Virus record (IMG/VR): IMGVR_UViG_3300021142_000235
Span: 1-20,336 of that record
Reading direction: 5' to 3' (one strand)
Length of the DNA: 20,336 nt
DNA from: a virus
Both the position numbers and the translations under genes were made by a program. Position 1 is the stretch's first letter. Every line of letters begins with the position of its first letter. Of this stretch, positions 1-20,336 are shown in pieces. The notes under the pieces are model-generated. The model saw nothing but the letters and a program-made list of their open reading frames with translations, searched no databases and was not told the DNA's origin.

Positions 1-130
1 ATTCTGGACTATAGCGAGCATGTGGTAGAAAATATTTTACAGCGTTTACACATAACCGGCGTGTTTTGAGATCAAGTCCTTCTAGTTTTACTGTAGTTTC
101 ATCTTCAATTATTAATTCAACTTGTTTCAT
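1..130 (-). CDS. uvsW: Probable UvsW-type helicase, N-terminal fragment (runs off window)
   Basis: Only the first 43 codons are present; the gene continues beyond the left edge. The ATG at 130 follows a GGTGGC-like ribosome binding site and lies 2 bases after the uvsY stop. The visible protein starts MKQVELIIEDETTVKLEG and reaches YFLPHARYSPE. T4 UvsW begins with a small domain containing a similar stretch (F-rich helix, then R-F/Y-N/S-P, then a G-x-W-D-G motif that would lie just outside this window). In T4, uvsW and uvsY are neighbours, which supports the call. UvsW is a 3'-5' DNA/RNA helicase acting in recombination-dependent replication and branch migration. The helicase motifs cannot be seen here, so identification rests on a short N-terminal resemblance plus synteny. 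Confidence 0.5.
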   Translation of the reverse strand, partial: MKQVELIIEDETTVKLEGLDLKTRRLCVNAVKYFLPHARYSPE

Positions 131-132
131 TG

Positions 133-600
133 TTAGCCACCTTTTGTATCAAGATTAGCATCTTCCATGCCAACTACTCGTAGTCGAACAATGTTTGATA
201 TTTGCCAATTTTTAATTTCTAGTCCCTTCATAAGGGCTAGGTATTTGTTTCTTACTAGGCCTACTTCATTAATAATCATATTCATGCTGACAATATCGTC
301 CTCGCCATCAATGTATTTTTCTATACTGCGATCAGTTAAATCACGCTGGTATCTTTCTAGATATTTTCTATAATGATCGCTTCGCATTTTGTCATATTTG
401 ATATTAAGATGTTTTAGGATAGCTTCTATTTCCTGAAGCTGCCCAAACCTGTGCGAGGTGATACCCGATAATTCTTGCGAATTTTTTTCCAGTTTACCAG
501 ATATTTTAGGTTCATTTTTAGCTGAATCAAGTTCGCTATTATAGTAATCAATTGCCGAAGGAATTTCAGCTAGATTTTCTACTATACGATTATACCACAT
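133..600 (-). CDS. uvsY: UvsY-like recombination mediator
   Basis: 155 residues, close to the 137-150 usual for UvsY of T4 and its marine relatives. UvsY helps load UvsX recombinase onto gp32-coated single-stranded DNA. The protein is a highly charged helical polypeptide without membrane segments. Its second half (residues about 93-145, from EKYIDGEDDIV through KNWQISNIVRLRVVGMEDA) matches the pattern I recall from cyanophage UvsY: a [RK]Y-[MI]-D-x-[DE] segment, a long amphipathic helix, then a [YW]-Q-I-x-N-I-[IV] motif near the C-terminus. It lies downstream of uvsX and just upstream of a probable uvsW, so recombination genes cluster here. No clear Shine-Dalgarno sequence precedes the ATG at 600; a TATAAT hexamer lies about 20 bases upstream inside the preceding gene but has no convincing -35. 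Recognition is from remembered family features, not a search. Confidence 0.65.
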   Translation of the reverse strand: MWYNRIVENLAEIPSAIDYYNSELDSAKNEPKISGKLEKNSQELSGITSHRFGQLQEIEAILKHLNIKYDKMRSDHYRKYLERYQRDLTDRSIEKYIDGEDDIVSMNMIINEVGLVRNKYLALMKGLEIKNWQISNIVRLRVVGMEDANLDTKGG

Positions 601-1340: not shown

Positions 1341-1868
1341 TTATTCTCCTATATCAGTTACCGTATCATTGTCTAGACTGTCTTGTGTTTGTAATAGTTT
1401 GCTTTCATCCCACTCATTCATGATTTGATCTAGAAGTGACGTAGGTATAGCTGAACGAAAATATTTGTGTTCTTTACCTGAGTTGTCAACATATTTTAGT
1501 TTTGTACTATCTTTTACTAAGACACCTTTCTTCTCAAAAAGGTCAATGAGACCACTATAAGGATCCATACCTGTATCCCAAGGGATTTTTATTTCAACGT
1601 TTTCAAACGGCTTGTTATATCTAGTCTTCATAATTTTGCATGCAGCACGAATACCACGAACATCTGTAACCTTTTTACCATCTTCGTCTTCTTTAAGCTT
1701 GCGCTTTTGCATAGCTACAACAATTGATGATGCATAAATGAAACCCGAGTTATGGCTGACTACGCCGCTATCTAATAGATAATGATGCGCATCGGGCACT
1801 GATATATCATATACTTTTTTGATACCTATATTTTTTTTACTTTTAATTTTGATTTTTTGTAGCGACAT
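1341..1868 (-). CDS. uvsX: UvsX fragment 3: C-intein 2 plus C-terminal extein
   Basis: 175 residues in two parts. Residues 1-40 (1749-1868) are a C-intein of conventional size: they carry the block F/G signature YDISVPDAHHYLLDSGVVSHN, ending in the catalytic His-Asn. Residues 41-175 (1341-1748) are the C-terminal UvsX extein and begin with Ser, the +1 nucleophile. The extein aligns with T4 UvsX after the L2 region: SGFIYASS matches TGPMYSAD, and DPYSGLIDLFEKKGVLVK matches DPYSGLLDMALELGFVVK. It would be joined in trans to fragment 2 after GG of KISGG. Its 5' end overlaps the 3' end of endonuclease gene 2 by 26 bases; an AAGGAG ribosome binding site lies about 10 bases upstream of the ATG. There is no other uvsX C-terminus in the window, so function should depend on trans-splicing. 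Confidence 0.92.
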   Translation of the reverse strand: MSLQKIKIKSKKNIGIKKVYDISVPDAHHYLLDSGVVSHNSGFIYASSIVVAMQKRKLKEDEDGKKVTDVRGIRAACKIMKTRYNKPFENVEIKIPWDTGMDPYSGLIDLFEKKGVLVKDSTKLKYVDNSGKEHKYFRSAIPTSLLDQIMNEWDESKLLQTQDSLDNDTVTDIGE

Positions 1869-2838
1869 TTTTGATATACTCCTTTACCATTTTAATTGAT
1901 TCTAGCATGTTATCTGATTCCCAAACTACTATAGTATGATACCCTCTGGTATTCAACATACACTGTTGTTTGTTTTTATCTCTGTCCCATATTTCTTGTG
2001 CTGTTAAATTTGTTTGTTTATGTAAGTATTCAGAATTATATTTTTTTGGATTACAATGCCAATAGTCTCCATAAAATTCAACACAAAGATTAAATTCTGG
2101 GACAACAAAATCGAAAAAATAATAACAATTAAAATTTGAATCTAAAATTCCATATTCACCATTTTCATTGCAGGCACTATAAATTTTGCAGCCAGCAAAT
2201 ATATTGCTTAATTCTAGAAAAAAGTTATTTGCCTTTTCTGAATTATGTCTATTTTTAAATTTTTTAGACCATAACTTTCGTCCTGCTACTTCTCCATGAT
2301 TGTTAATATACCCATCTAGTGTATAATTTATTTTTCTAGATTCACATAGAGCATTATATTTCAAAGTTCCTTCAGTTTCTCCAAATTTTGATATAAAATA
2401 TTGCAAAGACATATTATCAGAGCGTTGCATAATGTATGATTTAGCCTCATCCTCACTCATTCCATGTTCCATCCAATATTCTTTGCAAAATGGAGATCTA
2501 CGTTTTCTTTCAACCGTATCATATTTTTCTAATCTCAGTTGACTATTAGCATGTTGCACTATAGAAACTTGCTTGGTAGCATTTTCCATAGTGTATCCCT
2601 TCTTTATCCAATAATCAACGCTACGCGGACTTCGAGATTTCTGAAGTTGAGATATTTTTTCTTGCGATTCCTGCAATGACAATCCTTTTTTTAGCCAATA
2701 TTCAGCCGAAGTTTGACTGATTTTTTTAGGCTGTTTTAACTTTCTGTTGTTTTTGCACAATGATGAACATACATATTGTATAGTCATTATACTATCTTTT
2801 TTTCTTATCATTTTTCCGCATTCAACACATGGTTTCAT
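1843..2838 (-). CDS. Free-standing Vsr-like (EDxHD) homing endonuclease 2
   Basis: 331 residues from the ATG at 2838, preceded by GGAGGG and an 8-base spacer; the frame stays open upstream to a TTG that I reject because the hairpin arms lie there. The N-terminus has a zinc-finger pattern C-x2-C-x16-C-x3-C (residues 4-29). Three or four repeats of the form S-x-x-Y-W-[IL]-K-K-G-[LY]-[ST]-x2-x-[AS] follow (around EYWLKKGLS, DYWIKKGYT, EYWMEHGMS), probably DNA-binding units. The C-terminal nuclease has FFDFVVPEFNLCVEFYGDYW followed by HCNP, then W-x-R-D-K-x-K-x2-x-M-L and GYHTIVVWES, the order of catalytic elements in Vsr-fold nucleases such as I-Bth0305I. It lies between the two halves of split intein 2 and presumably cuts unfractured uvsX alleles there. 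Upstream hairpin and late promoter: see separate entries. Confidence 0.88.
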   Translation of the reverse strand: MKPCVECGKMIRKKDSIMTIQYVCSSLCKNNRKLKQPKKISQTSAEYWLKKGLSLQESQEKISQLQKSRSPRSVDYWIKKGYTMENATKQVSIVQHANSQLRLEKYDTVERKRRSPFCKEYWMEHGMSEDEAKSYIMQRSDNMSLQYFISKFGETEGTLKYNALCESRKINYTLDGYINNHGEVAGRKLWSKKFKNRHNSEKANNFFLELSNIFAGCKIYSACNENGEYGILDSNFNCYYFFDFVVPEFNLCVEFYGDYWHCNPKKYNSEYLHKQTNLTAQEIWDRDKNKQQCMLNTRGYHTIVVWESDNMLESIKMVKEYIKNVATKNQN

Positions 2839-2843
2839 GTGGT

Positions 2844-2895
2844 TTGCCCTCCAGTAATTTGTGTACGGTATATTTAGCAAATTACTGGAGGGCAA
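2844..2895 (-). promoter_or_regulatory. RBS-sequestering hairpin of endonuclease gene 2
   Basis: Perfect 18 bp inverted repeat: TTGCCCTCCAGTAATTTG at 2844-2861 and its exact reverse complement at 2878-2895, with a 16-base loop. In minus-strand RNA the 3' arm contains GGAGGG, the ribosome binding site of the ATG at 2838. RNA transcribed from upstream through this point should fold and block initiation. The loop holds a late-promoter octamer, so RNA started there would lack the 5' arm and leave the site free. The same logic is known for T4 I-TevI. The function is inferred; the pairing is seen directly. Confidence 0.85.
2871..2878 (-). promoter_or_regulatory. Putative late promoter GCTAAATA in hairpin loop
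   Basis: Minus-strand GCTAAATA matches the cyanophage-type late motif CTAAATA and 6 of 8 bases of T4 TATAAATA. If T4 spacing applies, RNA would start near 2865, inside the loop, so the 5' arm of the hairpin is omitted and the endonuclease ribosome binding site becomes accessible. Confidence 0.55.
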
Positions 2896-2905
2896 GGATT
2901 ATTAG

Positions 2906-4024
2906 TTAAACAAGTTGTAGGATTTCATCATTTACGTACAATTCCGCTACAGTTTTCCATACTAATTGATTATTAGACTGTTGCGTTGAAAACTTATGTT
3001 CGTTAGTGGCCTGAATTATTTCACCAGTTTCTAATTCAATTTCGATTACTTCTTTGTCATCAAATGTAAAAGTTTCTGAAACATCAATATCACCATCTAA
3101 TGTCACAACAACATCCCCTTGCCGAATATCTTCAATATTCTTTGATGAACCGTCTGCCATCCAGATTTTGTGTCCGGCTGTTAAACAACCGCCTGAAATT
3201 TTGTCATCTGGATCAAACATGTCTTGTGATTGATAACTATGATTAGTCACAACCATGCCTACATCATACTCGCCGAACATGTTCACGCAGTTGCGTACTA
3301 GTGCAGCCAGCGCCCGTGGTTTACGTCCCATGTCTCCTTTGAGGTCGCCTGCTTCAAATTGGTTTACATCGGTAGGTGTTAGCAACATGCCAAGACTATC
3401 AAGTACAAAAAGAGTCTTCTTGCGTTCTTCAGGAGCCAGGTCTTTGTACCATGCCATATAACCGGTAATAGTTTTAGCAACATCGTCAATCATAGCTAGG
3501 TTGACTTTGAAAAGCTTATCTGGATCAGTATCAACGCCAAGAGGTTTTAACCACTTTTCATCTAATGCGTTTTCTGTATCAATTAAGACAACAAATATAC
3601 CTTGTTGCTGTGCATTCCGAACCATATTACCAGAACAGATATAAGATTTACCAGAATTATGACTAGAAAATCCATCTCCCCAGTAACGGTGGTTATCATG
3701 TAGGACTTCGAAATCAAAACATTCTTGATCATCTATGTCTGTAGTTGCAATAACAGTTTGCGGTCCGCTTGTAGTTAATAAAACATCGCCTACATTCACT
3801 TCTCCAGCTAATACCCAATCTTCTGAATCTAATTGTAGAAGATGGGTATATGCACATGATGTAGTGTGTGATTCCGTAATTATTGAAACCATTTGTAATT
3901 TGCCCTTATCAAACCATTGACCTATCGGTTGATAACCATCGGGTGTATCTATTTCAATATGGTAATTATTACTAGCGACCATGTTTTTTAATAGTTCTAT
4001 AGTAACTTCCTGCTCAATAAACAT
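2906..4024 (-). CDS. uvsX: UvsX fragment 2: C-intein 1, central extein, N-intein 2
   Basis: 372 residues in three parts. Residues 1-123 (3656-4024) are an unusually large C-intein. It holds a block-B-like region (SCAYTHLLQL, with His but without the usual Thr three residues before it), VNVGDVLLT, and the F/G signature HRYWGDGFSSHN. Residues 124-279 (3188-3655) are central UvsX, starting SGKS to complete Walker A, with FVVLIDTENA and the Walker B strand TLFVLDSLG (residues 204-211), then TNHSYQSQDMF, matching T4 INHTYETQEMF. Residues 280-372 (2906-3187) are a conventional N-intein beginning Cys-Leu, with block B ATNEHKF (T-x2-H). The polypeptide must splice at both ends to contribute to UvsX. 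The start follows AGGA and overlaps endonuclease gene 1 by 11 bases; the stop lies 10 bases before the hairpin of endonuclease 2. Confidence 0.93.
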   Translation of the reverse strand: MFIEQEVTIELLKNMVASNNYHIEIDTPDGYQPIGQWFDKGKLQMVSIITESHTTSCAYTHLLQLDSEDWVLAGEVNVGDVLLTTSGPQTVIATTDIDDQECFDFEVLHDNHRYWGDGFSSHNSGKSYICSGNMVRNAQQQGIFVVLIDTENALDEKWLKPLGVDTDPDKLFKVNLAMIDDVAKTITGYMAWYKDLAPEERKKTLFVLDSLGMLLTPTDVNQFEAGDLKGDMGRKPRALAALVRNCVNMFGEYDVGMVVTNHSYQSQDMFDPDDKISGGCLTAGHKIWMADGSSKNIEDIRQGDVVVTLDGDIDVSETFTFDDKEVIEIELETGEIIQATNEHKFSTQQSNNQLVWKTVAELYVNDEILQLV

Positions 4025-5156
4025 AATTTTTTCCTATACTTTCTAACAAGGTTGTAACAACTACATCAGGTTGTTGTCTATATTCATTTTCCCAAATTAT
4101 GAGTAATTTAGACACGTGAGATGTATCTTCTTTAATTTTTGTTGCTCTAGTTGCGTCTGTTGTCCATTTTTCTTTCGAACAGTAACCATGTGTAAAAAAA
4201 TCTGCTGAAAAAAACAATGGATTTCTATGCCAATAATCTCCGTAGAATTCAATGACTGTTTTTGATTCAAGATGATAGAAATCTACTCTAAATCCGCCTA
4301 TCAATGCTTCGTGTGTAGTTGGCTTAAAATAACATGTTCCTTTGAGTTTTTCTCGAAGAGTTAAAAAAAGCTTATGCGATATATTTGAAAATGGAGACCT
4401 ATTGATTTGTCGCATTCGTTCGCACATATCGCTGTATGCTGTAATCGCATCATCCTCTGAATATCCCCTAAGTATATATCCATCAATTGATAATGATTTT
4501 TTACGATTTATAAGAGAAATTTCTTCAGTACTTTTAGATTGTAATGTATCTAGCCACGATTTAATTCTATTCTCAAATAAAATCTTCCCGCGTTCTTTCC
4601 CGTATTTTTCAGTATAAAATTTTAATCCATTAGTGGTTTGAACTCTACGCACTTGCTCGGCTGCATCAGATTCAGTCAATCCCTTACGTAACCAGTATTC
4701 AATCGATCTATGTGTATAAATGTTCTTGCCACGTGTTTTTTCAACTGATTTTTTGTTCCTCTCAAGTTGTATCTCTTTAACTTTGTCATTAGCCGCTGCT
4801 ATATCAAATCCTAAATCTGTCCAATATTTTACAGTATTTTTAAAATGTTTGCTACGCCTGGTGTCCTGTTCGTGCTTAATTTTTTCAAAATTTTTCTTGC
4901 CATACCGTAAAAACGCAGAAACATTTGATCGATCAGTTGGTATTTTCATCAATCTACGTAACCTTCCAACATAATTTATTAAATCATATTTTATAAAAGT
5001 TGCTATAGTTATATGCCACGTTTCTAATGACTTGCAAGTTCGGTCTTTAAATACTGCATTTAATCTAGTTATCTGTAAATCAGTTAATGCAATATTTCCT
5101 AATATTGCAATAACTGATTTCCGTTTCATAAATCTTTTAGCCTGTTTGTTCAACAT
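4014..5156 (-). CDS. Free-standing Vsr-like (EDxHD) homing endonuclease 1
   Basis: 380 residues, related to endonuclease 2 but clearly diverged. The central part has repeats of the same helical type (KYWTDLGFD, EYWLRKGLTESDAAEQVRR, GYILRGYSEDDAI), about 35-60 residues apart. The C-terminal nuclease contains GGFRVDFYHLESKTVIEFYG followed by DYWHRNP, then a W-rich/basic helix with ATKIKED and KLLIIWENEY. The D, E and H spacing agrees with the EDxHD Vsr-like family. Unlike endonuclease 2, its N-terminus (MLNKQAKRFMKRK) has no zinc finger. It sits between the two halves of split intein 1, the position expected for the nuclease that spreads the fracture at the uvsX Walker A site. AGGAAA lies 6 bases upstream of the ATG; the ATG itself is inside a hairpin arm. 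Confidence 0.88.
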   Translation of the reverse strand: MLNKQAKRFMKRKSVIAILGNIALTDLQITRLNAVFKDRTCKSLETWHITIATFIKYDLINYVGRLRRLMKIPTDRSNVSAFLRYGKKNFEKIKHEQDTRRSKHFKNTVKYWTDLGFDIAAANDKVKEIQLERNKKSVEKTRGKNIYTHRSIEYWLRKGLTESDAAEQVRRVQTTNGLKFYTEKYGKERGKILFENRIKSWLDTLQSKSTEEISLINRKKSLSIDGYILRGYSEDDAITAYSDMCERMRQINRSPFSNISHKLFLTLREKLKGTCYFKPTTHEALIGGFRVDFYHLESKTVIEFYGDYWHRNPLFFSADFFTHGYCSKEKWTTDATRATKIKEDTSHVSKLLIIWENEYRQQPDVVVTTLLESIGKNYVY

Positions 5157-5213
5157 ATTATGTTTCCTAGTATTATTTTTACATAGTATTTATTATTATG
5201 CTGGACAAACAGG
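5141..5213 (-). promoter_or_regulatory. Start-codon-sequestering hairpin of endonuclease gene 1
   Basis: Arms CCTGTTTGTTCAACAT (5141-5156) and ATGCTGGACAAACAGG (5198-5213) pair at 15 of 16 positions in minus-strand RNA (one G-U, one C-A mismatch), with a 41-base loop. The 3' arm begins exactly at the AUG of endonuclease 1, so the start codon and first five codons are in the stem. The loop contains the ribosome binding site and a late-promoter octamer. This reproduces the arrangement at endonuclease 2 with unrelated arm sequences, which argues for selection of the layout rather than simple duplication. Confidence 0.75.
5187..5194 (-). promoter_or_regulatory. Putative late promoter AATAAATA in hairpin loop
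   Basis: Minus-strand AATAAATA matches 7 of 8 bases of T4 TATAAATA and fits NATAAATA. It lies in the loop of the endonuclease 1 hairpin, 30 bases before the ATG, so RNA started from it would lack the 5' arm while keeping AGGAAA and the start codon. Confidence 0.6.
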
Positions 5214-5220
5214 TAAAATA

Positions 5221-5457
5221 TTATTTCAATTTATATTGTATACGAACCTTGGCTGATGCAGGCAAACAACCACTCTGACCAGCAAACATCGTAACCTTGC
5301 CTAATGGGATTCCATTCCTAAAGTTACCAGATATTGCATAATTTAGTGCATAATTACCCGAATCTACCCAGTGTTTTGGATCATTAAATCCAACAGAAAT
5401 ACCTGGAATACTTTTTGTCAGATCTTTTCTAAATTTTGAGATGTCAAAAGGACGCAT
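5221..5457 (-). CDS. uvsX: UvsX fragment 1: N-terminal extein plus 15-residue N-intein
   Basis: 78 residues. The frame is open to a GTG at 5499, but the ATG at 5457 has GGAGA 7 bases upstream and is preferred. Residues 1-63 are the UvsX N-terminus, running to GKVTMFAGQSG, the first half of Walker A. Residues 64-78 (5221-5268) are an N-intein of only 15 residues, CLPASAKVRIQYKLK, followed by a stop. Joined to SGKS of fragment 2 it gives GQSGSGKS, a perfect G-x4-G-K-S ATP-binding loop; without splicing UvsX would have no ATPase site. N-inteins this short are known from atypically split inteins (AceL-TerL about 25 residues, VidaL about 16). A strong hairpin separates this gene from gp32 upstream. 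Confidence 0.92.
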   Translation of the reverse strand: MRPFDISKFRKDLTKSIPGISVGFNDPKHWVDSGNYALNYAISGNFRNGIPLGKVTMFAGQSGCLPASAKVRIQYKLK

Positions 5458-5543: not shown

Positions 5544-6575
5544 TTACTTTCCTTGCTGACGCTTGCGTATTGCAGCAATAATATCATCAGGAGTTTGCAT
5601 GCGGGGTTTTTCAACTTGTGTAGTTACAGATTGTGTAGCTTGTGACTGATCTTCCCATGGTGGAGTATCATCAGTTGAGGGTTTTGCCTGAACTTTATTC
5701 AGTATTGAATTACCTGTCATGGCAACAGTTGTTTTTGTTGATACAACTGTTGCATCTGCGTCACTACTTGTGGTGTCATTACGCATGCTAGTTGGACGGT
5801 AAAATTGGCCCCATTTATCAAGATCATATAGTTCTTGATCAACGCTAGCTTGGAATAGTTCCATTATAGCATTTAGATGTGCTTCATCTGGTTTTTTAGG
5901 CAGAAAACTACTTAGGTTCCATAATCCATGAGTATTCATAGCAGCAGTTTCTATTTCTGATAGAGCACGCTCCTTCATAGCCCACTTGCTTGATGCATAG
6001 TTTGCATAACCGCCTTTAGTAGTCTTGATAAGGTAGAAATCACGTCCGTGGTCGAAATCAGTAGGACTATTTTCGAGATCTTGATCCATAAGGATTGATT
6101 TAATAACATCAAACACTGATGGATTGATGATAAATCTACGGATCGGATTTTCCGGTTCCTGATCATCCTTATTAGGGTTTGATGGAACAAAGCCTTGGAA
6201 CAGATAGCTCTTCTTTTTGTAATACTTCCGAGCCATGTCTTCGAGGCTCTTGTCTTTCCACCATGGACGAATTTCTGCTGTAATTGGACAAGAGCCTGCT
6301 TTCCACATATCTGTGCACGGAACTTGAACATCGACAGGTCTTCCAATAGGATCGCCTTTTACACCAGGAAATGGTAATTTAATGATTAAGCGTTCACACC
6401 AGAAAAAATCGTTTGATTCATCGCCGTCTGGTAAGAATCTAAGAGTAGCGCTTGAACCATCTGGATTATTCCAGAAAGGATAAATCGAATTGTCGCCACC
6501 GCCATTCTTTGCTCGGTCTTTATTGGCTTGTTGTGCCAGTAGTTTTGCTTGTATTTCTTTAAGACTTAGTGCCAT
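5544..6575 (-). CDS. 32: gp32-like single-stranded DNA-binding protein
   Basis: 343 residues (T4 gp32: 301). It binds single-stranded DNA cooperatively and coordinates replication, recombination and repair with UvsX/UvsY. The N-terminal basic region (MALSLKEIQAKLLAQQANKD) corresponds to the cooperative-binding B domain. The OB-fold core starts at about residue 31 (IYPFWNNPDGSSATLRFLPD, a pattern typical of T4-type gp32). Cysteines at 60, 87 and 96 lie in the zinc-loop region, but the T4 His/Cys set is not fully reproduced. The C-terminal 80 residues are Thr/Gln/Asp-rich and end in a basic helix (DDIIAAIRKRQQGK) instead of the acidic tail seen in T4. The ATG is preceded by AAAGGAGG and an 8-base spacer. 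It stands directly upstream of fractured uvsX, as expected for a recombination/replication block. Confidence 0.85.
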   Translation of the reverse strand: MALSLKEIQAKLLAQQANKDRAKNGGGDNSIYPFWNNPDGSSATLRFLPDGDESNDFFWCERLIIKLPFPGVKGDPIGRPVDVQVPCTDMWKAGSCPITAEIRPWWKDKSLEDMARKYYKKKSYLFQGFVPSNPNKDDQEPENPIRRFIINPSVFDVIKSILMDQDLENSPTDFDHGRDFYLIKTTKGGYANYASSKWAMKERALSEIETAAMNTHGLWNLSSFLPKKPDEAHLNAIMELFQASVDQELYDLDKWGQFYRPTSMRNDTTSSDADATVVSTKTTVAMTGNSILNKVQAKPSTDDTPPWEDQSQATQSVTTQVEKPRMQTPDDIIAAIRKRQQGK

Positions 6576-19212: not shown

Positions 19213-19763
19213 AATGGTTAGACTACAGCGACAGACACGTCATTAAAGACATAGCCAAATCTGTTTACACCAAACCAAGTCACTTATACCCTACAAATTT
19301 AAGCGGTGATTCTCCTCTCTATAATTATTTTTTGGTGCCGCCATCGGTTATAGGTTCTGATCAGCGTAAGGTTGCTGTAATTGTAAACAGCAACGGAGAG
19401 CCTGTTGTTGCAACAGGTGTTCGAGAATTAGGAAACATTCCTGCTTGGTTATTAAGTTGGACTGTAAGTTCAATATCTTCTATGTCGTTTGTGGCTGCAT
19501 GGAGACAAACCTTAAATTTTACAACAGCCTATTACGAATCAAAAAGTATAAATGAATTTTACGTGGTTAGTCCGGTTGAGCGCGAAGAAGCATATAGTAG
19601 AATGACAAGTTTTATGAGAAACCGATATTGGACTTTTGTCGAGCAAACTATCCCCAAAGGCACTAGGCCAACACACAGTCTTTATCATACCATAACTGGT
19701 AACATTTTATATACATATGATATAAACATAAGAAGGTATATTTTGAAAAGAGATCCTGTATGA
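19197..19763 (+). CDS. Hypothetical protein, possibly GNAT-like
   Basis: 188 residues, not firmly recognised. KVAVIVNSNGEPVVATGVREL could be the central strands of an acyltransferase fold; AWLLSWTVSSISSMSFVAAW is a Trp/Ser-rich segment; INEFYVVSPVEREEAYSRMT followed by SFMRNRYWTFVEQTIPKG resembles strand 5 plus the final helices of GNAT proteins (xxFYxxVxPxxxxAYxR). No acetyl-CoA loop motif is evident. The ATG has AAAGG 7 bases upstream and overlaps the PP-loop gene; its stop overlaps the desaturase start as ATGA, so translation of the whole operon is coupled. Confidence 0.6.
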   Translation: MQFSVKWLDYSDRHVIKDIAKSVYTKPSHLYPTNLSGDSPLYNYFLVPPSVIGSDQRKVAVIVNSNGEPVVATGVRELGNIPAWLLSWTVSSISSMSFVAAWRQTLNFTTAYYESKSINEFYVVSPVEREEAYSRMTSFMRNRYWTFVEQTIPKGTRPTHSLYHTITGNILYTYDINIRRYILKRDPV

Positions 19764-20336
19764 TTAATTGGTTAAAGCAAAACTATCACACATATAAAGT
19801 AACTGGACAAATTCCAGCATTTTTTGCCATAATTGGCCCATATCATTTATTAGCACTTATAGGCATAATTGCTGCATATTTCACATGGTCTTGGTACTAT
19901 CTTGTATATTTTGTGCTTGGATATGTTGTTTTTGGAGGTATAGGCGATGCGGTTATATTACACAGACACCTATCTCACAATAGTGTTGCGTTGCGACCCA
20001 GATTAAAACCGCTACTATATTGGATAGCTTGTATAACAGGCCAAGGCTCGCCAATCTGGTGGGCAGCATTACACCGTGGCTATCATCATGCTTATTCTGA
20101 TAAAGAAAAAGATTTGCATTCACCTATGAAAGGTAAATGGTCAGCTTATATGGGATGGATGTTAGCCATTACTCATGATACTGTCAATTTGAAGTATGCG
20201 GCAACCTTACTAAGAGATAAACATTTGATTTTTTTCCATAAACATTACAACAAAGTGATATGGGCTACCTTAGCAGTAATCTTTACAATAAATCCAATGT
20301 TCTGTCTGTGGTTTGTAGTTATTCCGTGCGTATTTG
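19760..20336 (+). CDS. Fatty acid desaturase (N-terminal part, runs off window)
   Basis: 192 residues are visible with no stop before the right edge. It is a membrane di-iron desaturase of the delta-9 acyl-CoA/acyl-lipid type. Residues 22-62 make two membrane segments (FAIIGPYHLLALIGIIAAYF, WYYLVYFVLGYVVFGGIG). The first histidine box is HRHLSH (H68, H73) and the second is HRGYHHAYSD (H105, H109, H110), followed by the DLHSP motif typical of the family. The third box (H-x2-H-H) should lie beyond the window. After residue 160 another hydrophobic pair begins (IWATLAVIFTINPMFCLWFV). It introduces a double bond into membrane fatty acids, a membrane-tuning function unusual for a phage. The ATG overlaps the preceding stop (ATGA). 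Confidence 0.9.
   Translation, partial: MINWLKQNYHTYKVTGQIPAFFAIIGPYHLLALIGIIAAYFTWSWYYLVYFVLGYVVFGGIGDAVILHRHLSHNSVALRPRLKPLLYWIACITGQGSPIWWAALHRGYHHAYSDKEKDLHSPMKGKWSAYMGWMLAITHDTVNLKYAATLLRDKHLIFFHKHYNKVIWATLAVIFTINPMFCLWFVVIPCVF

Follow-up and report, generated by a model that had tools for sequence, protein, structure and literature searches.

The fractured uvsX locus

The DNA examined here, which we call the window, is a 20,336-nt stretch of a viral record (IMG/VR record IMGVR_UViG_3300021142_000235) whose minus strand carries the gene for a UvsX recombinase in three separate pieces (fragments A, B, and C). The gene order on that strand is gp32-like, uvsX A, HEN1, uvsX B, HEN2, uvsX C, two further genes, uvsY-like, and the 5′ end of a gene resembling uvsW (Table 1), where HEN1 and HEN2 are candidate homing endonuclease genes. 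The original prediction, made from the letters, had proposed consecutive UvsX exteins of 63, 156, and 135 residues on three minus-strand genes, and translation bears out these lengths and their sum of 354 aa. It had also described, at each junction, an N-terminal intein half (IntN) starting with Cys and a C-terminal half (IntC) ending in His-Asn and followed by Ser; the letters confirm Cys1 on both N-halves, His-Asn on both C-halves, and Ser+1 at both sites. At either junction, an endonuclease gene sits between gene pieces that bear complementary intein halves, the arrangement by which we recognize a fractured gene.

A ribosome-site-like sequence can be read from the letters before all five genes (A, HEN1, B, HEN2, and C). 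The 3′ end of HEN1 runs 11 nt into fragment B; that of HEN2 runs 26 nt into fragment C and contains the ribosome-site-like sequence of fragment C. The putative ribosome sites of B and C thus sit inside the endonuclease genes. We took ATG 2838 as the start of HEN2, with the frame staying open back to a TTG at 2895. An assembly chimera was considered as the source of this layout and rejected because a near-identical locus is present in two other contigs, 3300021127_000037 and 3300032579_000827 (100.000% and 99.992% nucleotide identity, respectively, over 12,021 nt each).

Once the exteins are joined, the Walker A motif GQSGSGKS is intact and the 354-aa product has the RecA core of a UvsX/RecA recombinase. 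Its best profile match is to PHROG 97 (UvsX-like, E 1.6e-67), and among solved chains it matches 9gbg (E 1.9e-36), T4 UvsX (3io5, E 4.9e-18), 7z3m, and RecA chains, as the proposed search against UvsX/RecA models was expected to return. A second, intact uvsX had been named as grounds for doubt. Profile searches with phrog_97 found no second full copy in any of 10 records, which include the complete genomes of Pseudomonas phage PA5oct and Salicola phage SCTP-2, one contig of 306 kb, and, for the window's virus, a contig of 50.7 kb; PA5oct (E 5e-5) and one other record, G006 (E 9e-5), each have a single weak extra match, confined to the P-loop portion of the profile. The 50.7-kb contig holds no uvsX besides the three pieces; it is an incomplete genome, so an intact copy may still lie outside it.

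Table 1. Features of the uvsX region (phrog entries are profile matches with their E values)
Feature	Position	Strand	Description
uvsW-like helicase gene, 5′ end	1..130	-	rest beyond the window (L107:6488-9254, same virus)
uvsY-like recombination mediator	133..600	-	downstream neighbor; phrog_231 E 4.3e-15
uvsX fragment C	1341..1868	-	IntC2 + extein 3 + stop; phrog_97 E 9.6e-15
extein 3	1344-1748	-	135 aa
IntC2	1749-1868	-	40 aa, C-terminal VVSHN
HEN2	1843..2838	-	predicted Vsr-like endonuclease gene, 331 aa; PHROG 3339 (homing endonuclease)
HEN2 leader	2844..2895	-	perfect 18-bp hairpin, 2895-2878 / 2861-2844
uvsX fragment B	2906..4024	-	IntC1 + extein 2 + IntN2 + stop; phrog_97 E 2e-29
IntN2	2909-3187	-	93 aa, N-terminal CLTAGH
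extein 2	3188-3655	-	156 aa, SGKS...KISGG
IntC1	3656-4024	-	123 aa, C-terminal SSHN
HEN1	4014..5156	-	predicted Vsr-like endonuclease gene, 380 aa; phrog_22677 (function blank) E 7e-13
HEN1 leader	5141..5213	-	17-nt imperfect inverted repeat, arms 5213-5197 / 5157-5141
uvsX fragment A	5221..5457	-	extein 1 + IntN1 + stop; phrog_97 E 2.9e-12
IntN1	5224-5268	-	15 aa, CLPASAKVRIQYKLK, then stop
extein 1	5269-5457	-	63 aa, to GQSG
gp32-like single-strand DNA-binding protein	5544..6575	-	upstream neighbor; phrog_1192 E 1e-59

Two differently split inteins

Intein 1 interrupts the Walker A loop at GQSG/SGKS (site 1) and is split into 15 + 123 aa. A search of IntC1 against PDB chain sequences returned VidaL (6vgv) with E 2.2e-40, and a profile built from 20 unsplit relatives matched the same chain with E 5.2e-58 over 143 positions, the flanking extein residues ESG/SGK being covered. 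An AlphaFold model of an unsplit intein 1 from a relative (L087, pLDDT 93) has VidaL 6vgv as its best Foldseek match (TM 0.94), and the point equivalent to the split, residue 19, falls between strands 11-16 and 21-26. The family sequence, the HINT fold, an IntN of ∼15-17 aa, and a split after the second strand are the marks of a VidaL-type intein, and all four are found here; by sequence and predicted fold, intein 1 is a VidaL ortholog that is atypically split. Its fold, family, and flanking extein residues ESG/SGK are common to VidaL (6vgv/6vgw), from which it differs in an IntN of 15 rather than 16 aa, in the presence of a second split intein in the same protein, and in the endonuclease gene that lies between its halves. 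The shortest characterized IntN is given as 15 aa in PMC10189870 and PMC13014065, and IntN1 has this length. VidaL trans-splices with a half-life of ∼1 min at 37 °C according to PMC13014065; trans-splicing, known for VidaL only, would be expected of intein 1 by family membership. In one relative (L003), IntN and IntC are, by eye, almost letter-identical to the crystallized VidaL chain; this suggests that VidaL comes from the Walker A loop of a uvsX gene.

We also noted a VidaL-like split intein with a Vsr-like endonuclease open reading frame (ORF) in the P-loop of an ATPase that by eye looks PhoH-like (L332:1623-4894, LR756500); the Walker A loops that the VidaL family invades thus seem not to be limited to UvsX.

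A canonical split intein has an IntN of ∼90-130 aa, an IntC of 35-50 aa, Cys1, a block-B TxxH, and a C-terminal His-Asn. Intein 2, at the KISGG/SGF junction (site 2), has halves of 93 + 40 aa, Cys1, TNEH in block B, and SHN at its C-terminus, and by these sequence features is canonically split. The IntN2 profile finds gp41-1 with E 8e-10, behind two higher-ranked Tako8 rows in which no single stretch passes by itself. The fragment B match to the Intein_splicing profile (E 1.5e-7) is below that profile's curated cut-off. The proposed search of the intein halves thus returned VidaL for intein 1 and gp41-1 for intein 2. The claim of two split inteins stands; the original prediction lacked the 15-aa length of IntN1, so it missed the atypical split, and intein 1 proves to belong to a family, VidaL, that has already been characterized biochemically.

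Endonucleases and their leaders

A Vsr-like endonuclease gene had been placed in each gap, and both assignments hold up. HEN1 and HEN2 are ∼21% identical to each other. HEN2 has 89-96% identical copies at the same site in relatives, and HEN1 has a 75% identical copy at the same place in a related contig (L086). In the AlphaFold model of HEN2 (24-row alignment, pLDDT 86, pTM 0.43), residues 199-327 form a C-terminal domain that VIA-align superposes on Vsr (1cw0, Z 9.8) and on the catalytic domain of I-Bth0305I (3r3p, Z 9.4, rmsd 2.7 Å, 95/97 residues). The model thus gives HEN2 a Vsr-like catalytic domain fold, and a Vsr-like assignment of HEN1 is supported by its alignment with HEN2 relatives. 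Vsr-like homing endonucleases of this kind go by the family name EDxHD; candidates for the E-D-x-H-D catalytic residues of HEN2 are D243, E254, H261, and D287, invariant over the 24 rows, and E228, conserved in ≥90%.

Both genes are preceded by a predicted RNA hairpin, which the original prediction, while correct about the endonuclease genes, left unmentioned. The HEN2 hairpin (-29 kcal/mol) is the lowest-energy of 910 scanned 70-nt folds (shuffle z -7.1); its 3′ arm contains the GGAGG ribosome site, and the hexamer TAAATA (2876-2871) lies in its loop. In the HEN1 hairpin (shuffle z -5.1, stem score 14), the second arm contains the start codon, ATG 5156, and TAAATA (5192-5187) is again in the loop. 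In the predicted folds, a stable hairpin thus encloses the ribosome site (HEN2) or the start codon (HEN1), the configuration of I-TevI-type leaders. In the leaders of T4 I-TevI, segB, and Aeh1 mobE, such a hairpin masks the ribosome site as long as transcripts are early or middle ones, whereas those from a late promoter are too short for the hairpin, as reviewed in PMC2988022. The window's leaders share with these a hairpin over the ribosome site or start codon, with a late-promoter-like motif inside; they differ in that the endonuclease family is another one, the setting is a split intein and not a group I intron or intergenic region, and the window's promoter is a putative one. We found no report of I-TevI-like leader control in fractured genes in the open-licence literature, where, as far as its text goes, only the review PMC2988022 covers the topics together.

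This leader type recurs at other fractured uvsX loci. Setting aside five loci with endonuclease ORFs of <300 aa, we collected 28 distinct leaders, one of them without a stem, which left 27. A stem score ≥9 is found in 22 of the 27, TAAATA between the arms (a count that takes in the 5′ arm as well as the loop) in 21, and both in 19; the corresponding numbers for control leaders, from other ORFs of the same loci, are 67, 17, and 5 of 241. The hairpin arms of the 27 leaders differ widely in sequence. Chance hairpins are made unlikely by the shuffles and the 241 control leaders. Within the window, TAAATA is depleted (13 found vs 32 expected), and of its 11 minus-strand copies, 8 precede a gene start, out of 20 listed, by no more than 90 nt.

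Cassette mobility among relatives

A census of uvsX loci comprises 163 rows, one per distinct pair of site states plus middle-extein sequence, among the matches listed. Given as site 1/site 2, these are 72 empty/empty, 20 cis/empty, 20 split+HEN/empty, 11 empty/split+HEN, 9 split/empty, 5 empty/split, 3 split/split, 3 cis/split, 2 empty/cis, 1 cis/cis, and 1 split+HEN/split+HEN, the rest being partial. The loci were gathered for several reasons, so that the counts describe this collection and no frequency in nature; one row (L101) counts L086 again and two (L103, L106) the window's virus, and the label "split(gap)" may conceal endonucleases of other families, as in L222. In some relatives site 2 is filled while site 1 is empty, and in others it is the other way round.

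The double fracture is found in the window's virus and in five other lineages. In L086, HEN2 is cut down to about its last 90 codons, and the contig ends inside IntC2; L002 has no endonuclease; in L222 the site 2 gap holds a 525-aa ORF of another family; L093, a 306-kb contig that is ∼31% identical, has its site 2 one residue further on by our own reading, with Cys+1; and the contig of L217 begins inside HEN1. The double fracture, which had been put forward as unusual, is thus rare but not unique; two of the five lineages are incomplete at contig ends. The L222 ORF (L222:7120-8694), in the place of the Vsr-like endonuclease, consists of DUF7487 and a weak acetyltransferase-like stretch. The second gap of L093 contains a reverse-strand 103-aa ORF (L093:9735-10046), perhaps an endonuclease remnant in the opposite orientation.

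Sequence comparisons show that the cassettes have moved horizontally, and they look mobile. Compared with four relatives (L147, L150, L152, and L142), the window's exteins show 69-81% nucleotide identity, with 69-78% for exteins 1 and 2, whereas IntN2, HEN2, and IntC2 are 91-98% identical and the leader 89-97%. The upstream edge of this conserved block is sharp; downstream, identity in extein 3 slopes from 85-97% at the junction to 57-62% at the end, as in the pattern left by co-conversion. The near-isogenic pair L217 and L317 has 99.857% identity across 2,804 nt that begin 14 nt inside extein 2 and include the site 2 cassette. At site 1, L217 carries IntC1 and the 3′ part of HEN1 (to the contig start), whereas L317 has an uninterrupted GESG-AGKS. 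An extein tree requires at least 13 occupied/empty changes at site 1 and at least 14 at site 2, and on it the label "site-1 split+HEN, site 2 empty" barely clusters (17 changes vs a shuffled mean of 18.5). This is a quick tree of 106 of the 163 rows, with at most 22 both-empty rows and without rows whose middle-extein match is <90 bits or <230 aa; its long branches, L093 included, were flagged.

Endonuclease remnants were found in L003, L283, and L086. The L003 gap aligns with about the last 60 nt, and the L283 gap with about the last 90 nt, of a near relative's endonuclease gene. What remains in these two is the part with the downstream ribosome site, which indicates an internal deletion with the split kept. 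A search of host genome contigs for a host or prophage link returned 16 pattern-matching stretches by alignment and 0 confirmed relatives.

Comparison with cultured phages and known fractured genes

Fractured genes with free-standing EDxHD endonucleases were reportedly described by Dassa and colleagues in 2009. Those genes are likewise reported to have intein halves on two gene pieces with a Vsr-like endonuclease gene between; the window differs in that its gene is fractured twice, which gives a middle piece with an intein half at both ends, and it adds leaders with a ribosome-site-hiding hairpin and a late-promoter-like motif.

Among isolates, PA5oct (NC_071039) has the site 1 fracture with an endonuclease gene and a hairpin leader with TAAATA, but its site 2 is empty. 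Matches to IntC1 and HEN1, spaced as in PA5oct, occur in nine Pseudomonas phages related to it, and several PA5oct relatives are listed on the host P. aeruginosa PAO1. A split polB has been published for the PA5oct relative MIJ3 (PMC6892783); the word RecA has no occurrence in the main text of that paper. In SCTP-2 (MF360958), homologous inteins occupy both sites of uvsX; unlike in the window, both are unsplit and the gene is single. Three cultured T4-like phages, ELT1 (L329), Pm5461 (L330), and SEA1 (L331), have the site 2 uvsX fracture with a NUMOD3-type endonuclease between. In ELT1 (MZ892903, Tequatrovirus, host K-12 MG1655), uvsX is fractured at MTGG/TGVM, and the leader hairpin overlaps the ribosome site and the start codon. 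The split intein at site 2, the endonuclease gene in the gap, and the leader hairpin are as in the window; the NUMOD3-type endonuclease and an uninterrupted site 1 set ELT1 apart. The uvsX pieces of the three phages are annotated as two recombination proteins.

Predicted coexistence of two inteins in one protein

An IntC-extein-IntN order, with both halves from one intein, is a design for making cyclic peptides. Fragment B has the order IntC1-extein-IntN2. The original prediction had held that the two inteins must be orthogonal, and this demand can be sharpened: the middle piece would be expected to cyclize if its halves shared one intein, and the split places differ. Intein 1 is broken behind residue 15 and intein 2 behind residue 93, so that IntN1 + IntC2 would make far too little of an intein and IntC1 + IntN2 would overlap. 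Non-cognate halves should therefore not complement, and the differing split sites should stop fragment B from cyclizing. The pairing of a short with a long IntN (15-18 and 93-94 residues) is found in the window, L086, L002, L222, and L093, the double-fracture lineages in which both IntN halves are readable.

The halves also differ in net charge. Among site 1 split rows, IntN1 is positive in 29/32 and IntC1 negative in 32/32; at site 2, IntN2 is acidic in every parsed row and IntC2 mostly basic or neutral (the counts include near-duplicate rows, and five site 2 rows were unparsed). The first 15 residues at site 1 average +3.1 in split (n = 28) vs +0.8 in unsplit inteins (n = 21; p 0.0002, ignoring kinship). 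Opposite charges of this kind should help keep the intein pairs apart.

We lean, by a modest step, toward a wider view in which fractured-gene cassettes are one class of mobile element with its own timing module, and in which two can stack in one essential gene only if they are split differently, because the middle piece has the circularizing IntC-extein-IntN order. If this is true, orthogonal protein ligation from three pieces would occur naturally in the doubly fractured UvsX, the very recombinase that homing needs. Protein engineers build tandem three-segment trans-splicing with two orthogonal split inteins (for example, PMC12707363), and the same logic appears natural here, in a key recombination gene and in several phage lineages. 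Matched pairs of a 15-aa VidaL-type and a canonical intein could serve as orthogonal tools.

Proposed model and alternatives

Taken together, these results make it very probable that a T4-type phage uvsX was invaded at two sites by independent split-intein/homing-endonuclease cassettes and that its pieces are joined by two trans-splicing reactions. Each cassette would consist of IntN, a stop codon, an RNA hairpin with an internal late-promoter-like motif, the endonuclease gene, and IntC. The three UvsX pieces probably come from one message, each with its own ribosome-site-like sequence, and after translation intein 1 would create the GQSG/SGKS junction and intein 2 the KISGG/SGF junction. HEN1 and HEN2 would cut cassette-free uvsX alleles, and recombination would then copy the cassette in. 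In read-through transcripts, the leader would mask the ribosome site or start codon, which late transcripts starting inside the hairpin would leave free.

Several observations weigh against parts of this model. For the HEN fold, the VIA-align margin is modest, with the unrelated-looking FASTKD4 and mitoribosomal proteins at Z 8.0-8.4, and Foldseek (best E 0.08) and sequence (Vsr, E 0.04) give weak matches. As to the leaders, 8 of the 27 fail the joint test (3 with the stem only, 2 with the motif only, 3 with neither); the ribosome site or ATG falls within a hairpin arm in 20 of the 27, a feature scored for these leaders alone; and the Fisher value for the joint occurrence of hairpin and TAAATA (p 1e-18) is overstated and no strict probability because the rows are related. 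The T4 late-promoter consensus TATAAATA has 0 occurrences in the window against 3.25 expected, and it is the position of TAAATA that suggests a late promoter. The site 2 charge pattern breaks in L093 and L209, where IntC2 is negative. Finally, for the window's virus, with its incomplete genome, splicing, cutting, and expression are predictions.

A gene in three pieces within an incomplete genome might be a decaying pseudogene whose remnants persist while another recombinase is used. We consider this very unlikely: all frames are open, a ribosome-site-like sequence precedes each, and the splice residues are kept; the same layout recurs at 99.99-100% in two contigs and also in diverged relatives; and no other uvsX was found in the 50.7 kb of the same virus or in the 306-kb doubly fractured record. 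Even less probable is a non-covalent complex of the fragments with dead intein halves. Splicing here is a prediction, which leaves room for such a complex, but intein 1 breaks the Walker A loop itself, the nucleophiles and His-Asn ends are retained, and trans-splicing is described in PMC13014065 for VidaL, a family member whose flanks are the same.

Slightly better placed than the pseudogene, though still improbable, is an adaptive reading, in which the fracture serves the phage by regulating recombination through a gate that needs three inputs to assemble, instead of being the scar left by a parasite. The fracture does recur in several lineages, the split is kept where the endonuclease is lost, and a fractured uvsW adjoins. 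Yet occupancy is patchy across the extein tree (at least 13 and at least 14 changes), and this, with the empty sites in near relatives and the homing signature, fits a mobile element; for the split to persist after endonuclease loss it is enough that fusion is difficult.

Each part of the two-cassette arrangement is already of a known kind; the observation is confirmed and its interpretation supported. We found no description, in the open-licence literature, of differently split inteins stacked in one key gene, of their recurrence, or of their I-TevI-like leaders. Fractured-gene homing, timing, and splicing become directly testable in a standard laboratory phage through the L217/L317 pair, the endonuclease-deletion remnants, and the uvsX of ELT1, which is related to T4 and has E. 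coli K-12 as host.

Neighboring genes and other observations

The neighborhood holds a further fracture on which the original prediction was silent, most of it being beyond the window. In an overlapping contig (G001), the uvsW-like SF2 helicase gene (L107:6488-9254) contains a third split intein, which fractures it at its DE/CH box; a NUMOD3-type endonuclease gene separates the two halves, and the C-intein ends in Ser-Asn, not His-Asn. If the uvsX and uvsW inteins all splice, this phage would depend on three trans-splicing reactions for its neighboring recombination genes. UvsX, UvsY, and gp32 take part in T4 homing, as described in PMC2988022, so the cassettes have settled in machinery that they would need.

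Intein-like insertions were also seen outside the recombination genes. What by eye is a terminase large subunit (L002:1505-3634) carries two of them in one open frame, located at apparent ATPase motifs, and G005, a 306-kb phage record, is intein-rich, with nine intein-domain matches. At the far end of the window, on the plus strand, a fatty-acid desaturase-like gene (19760-20335; Pfam E 3e-6, just under the cut-off) runs off the window and is a possible auxiliary metabolic gene.

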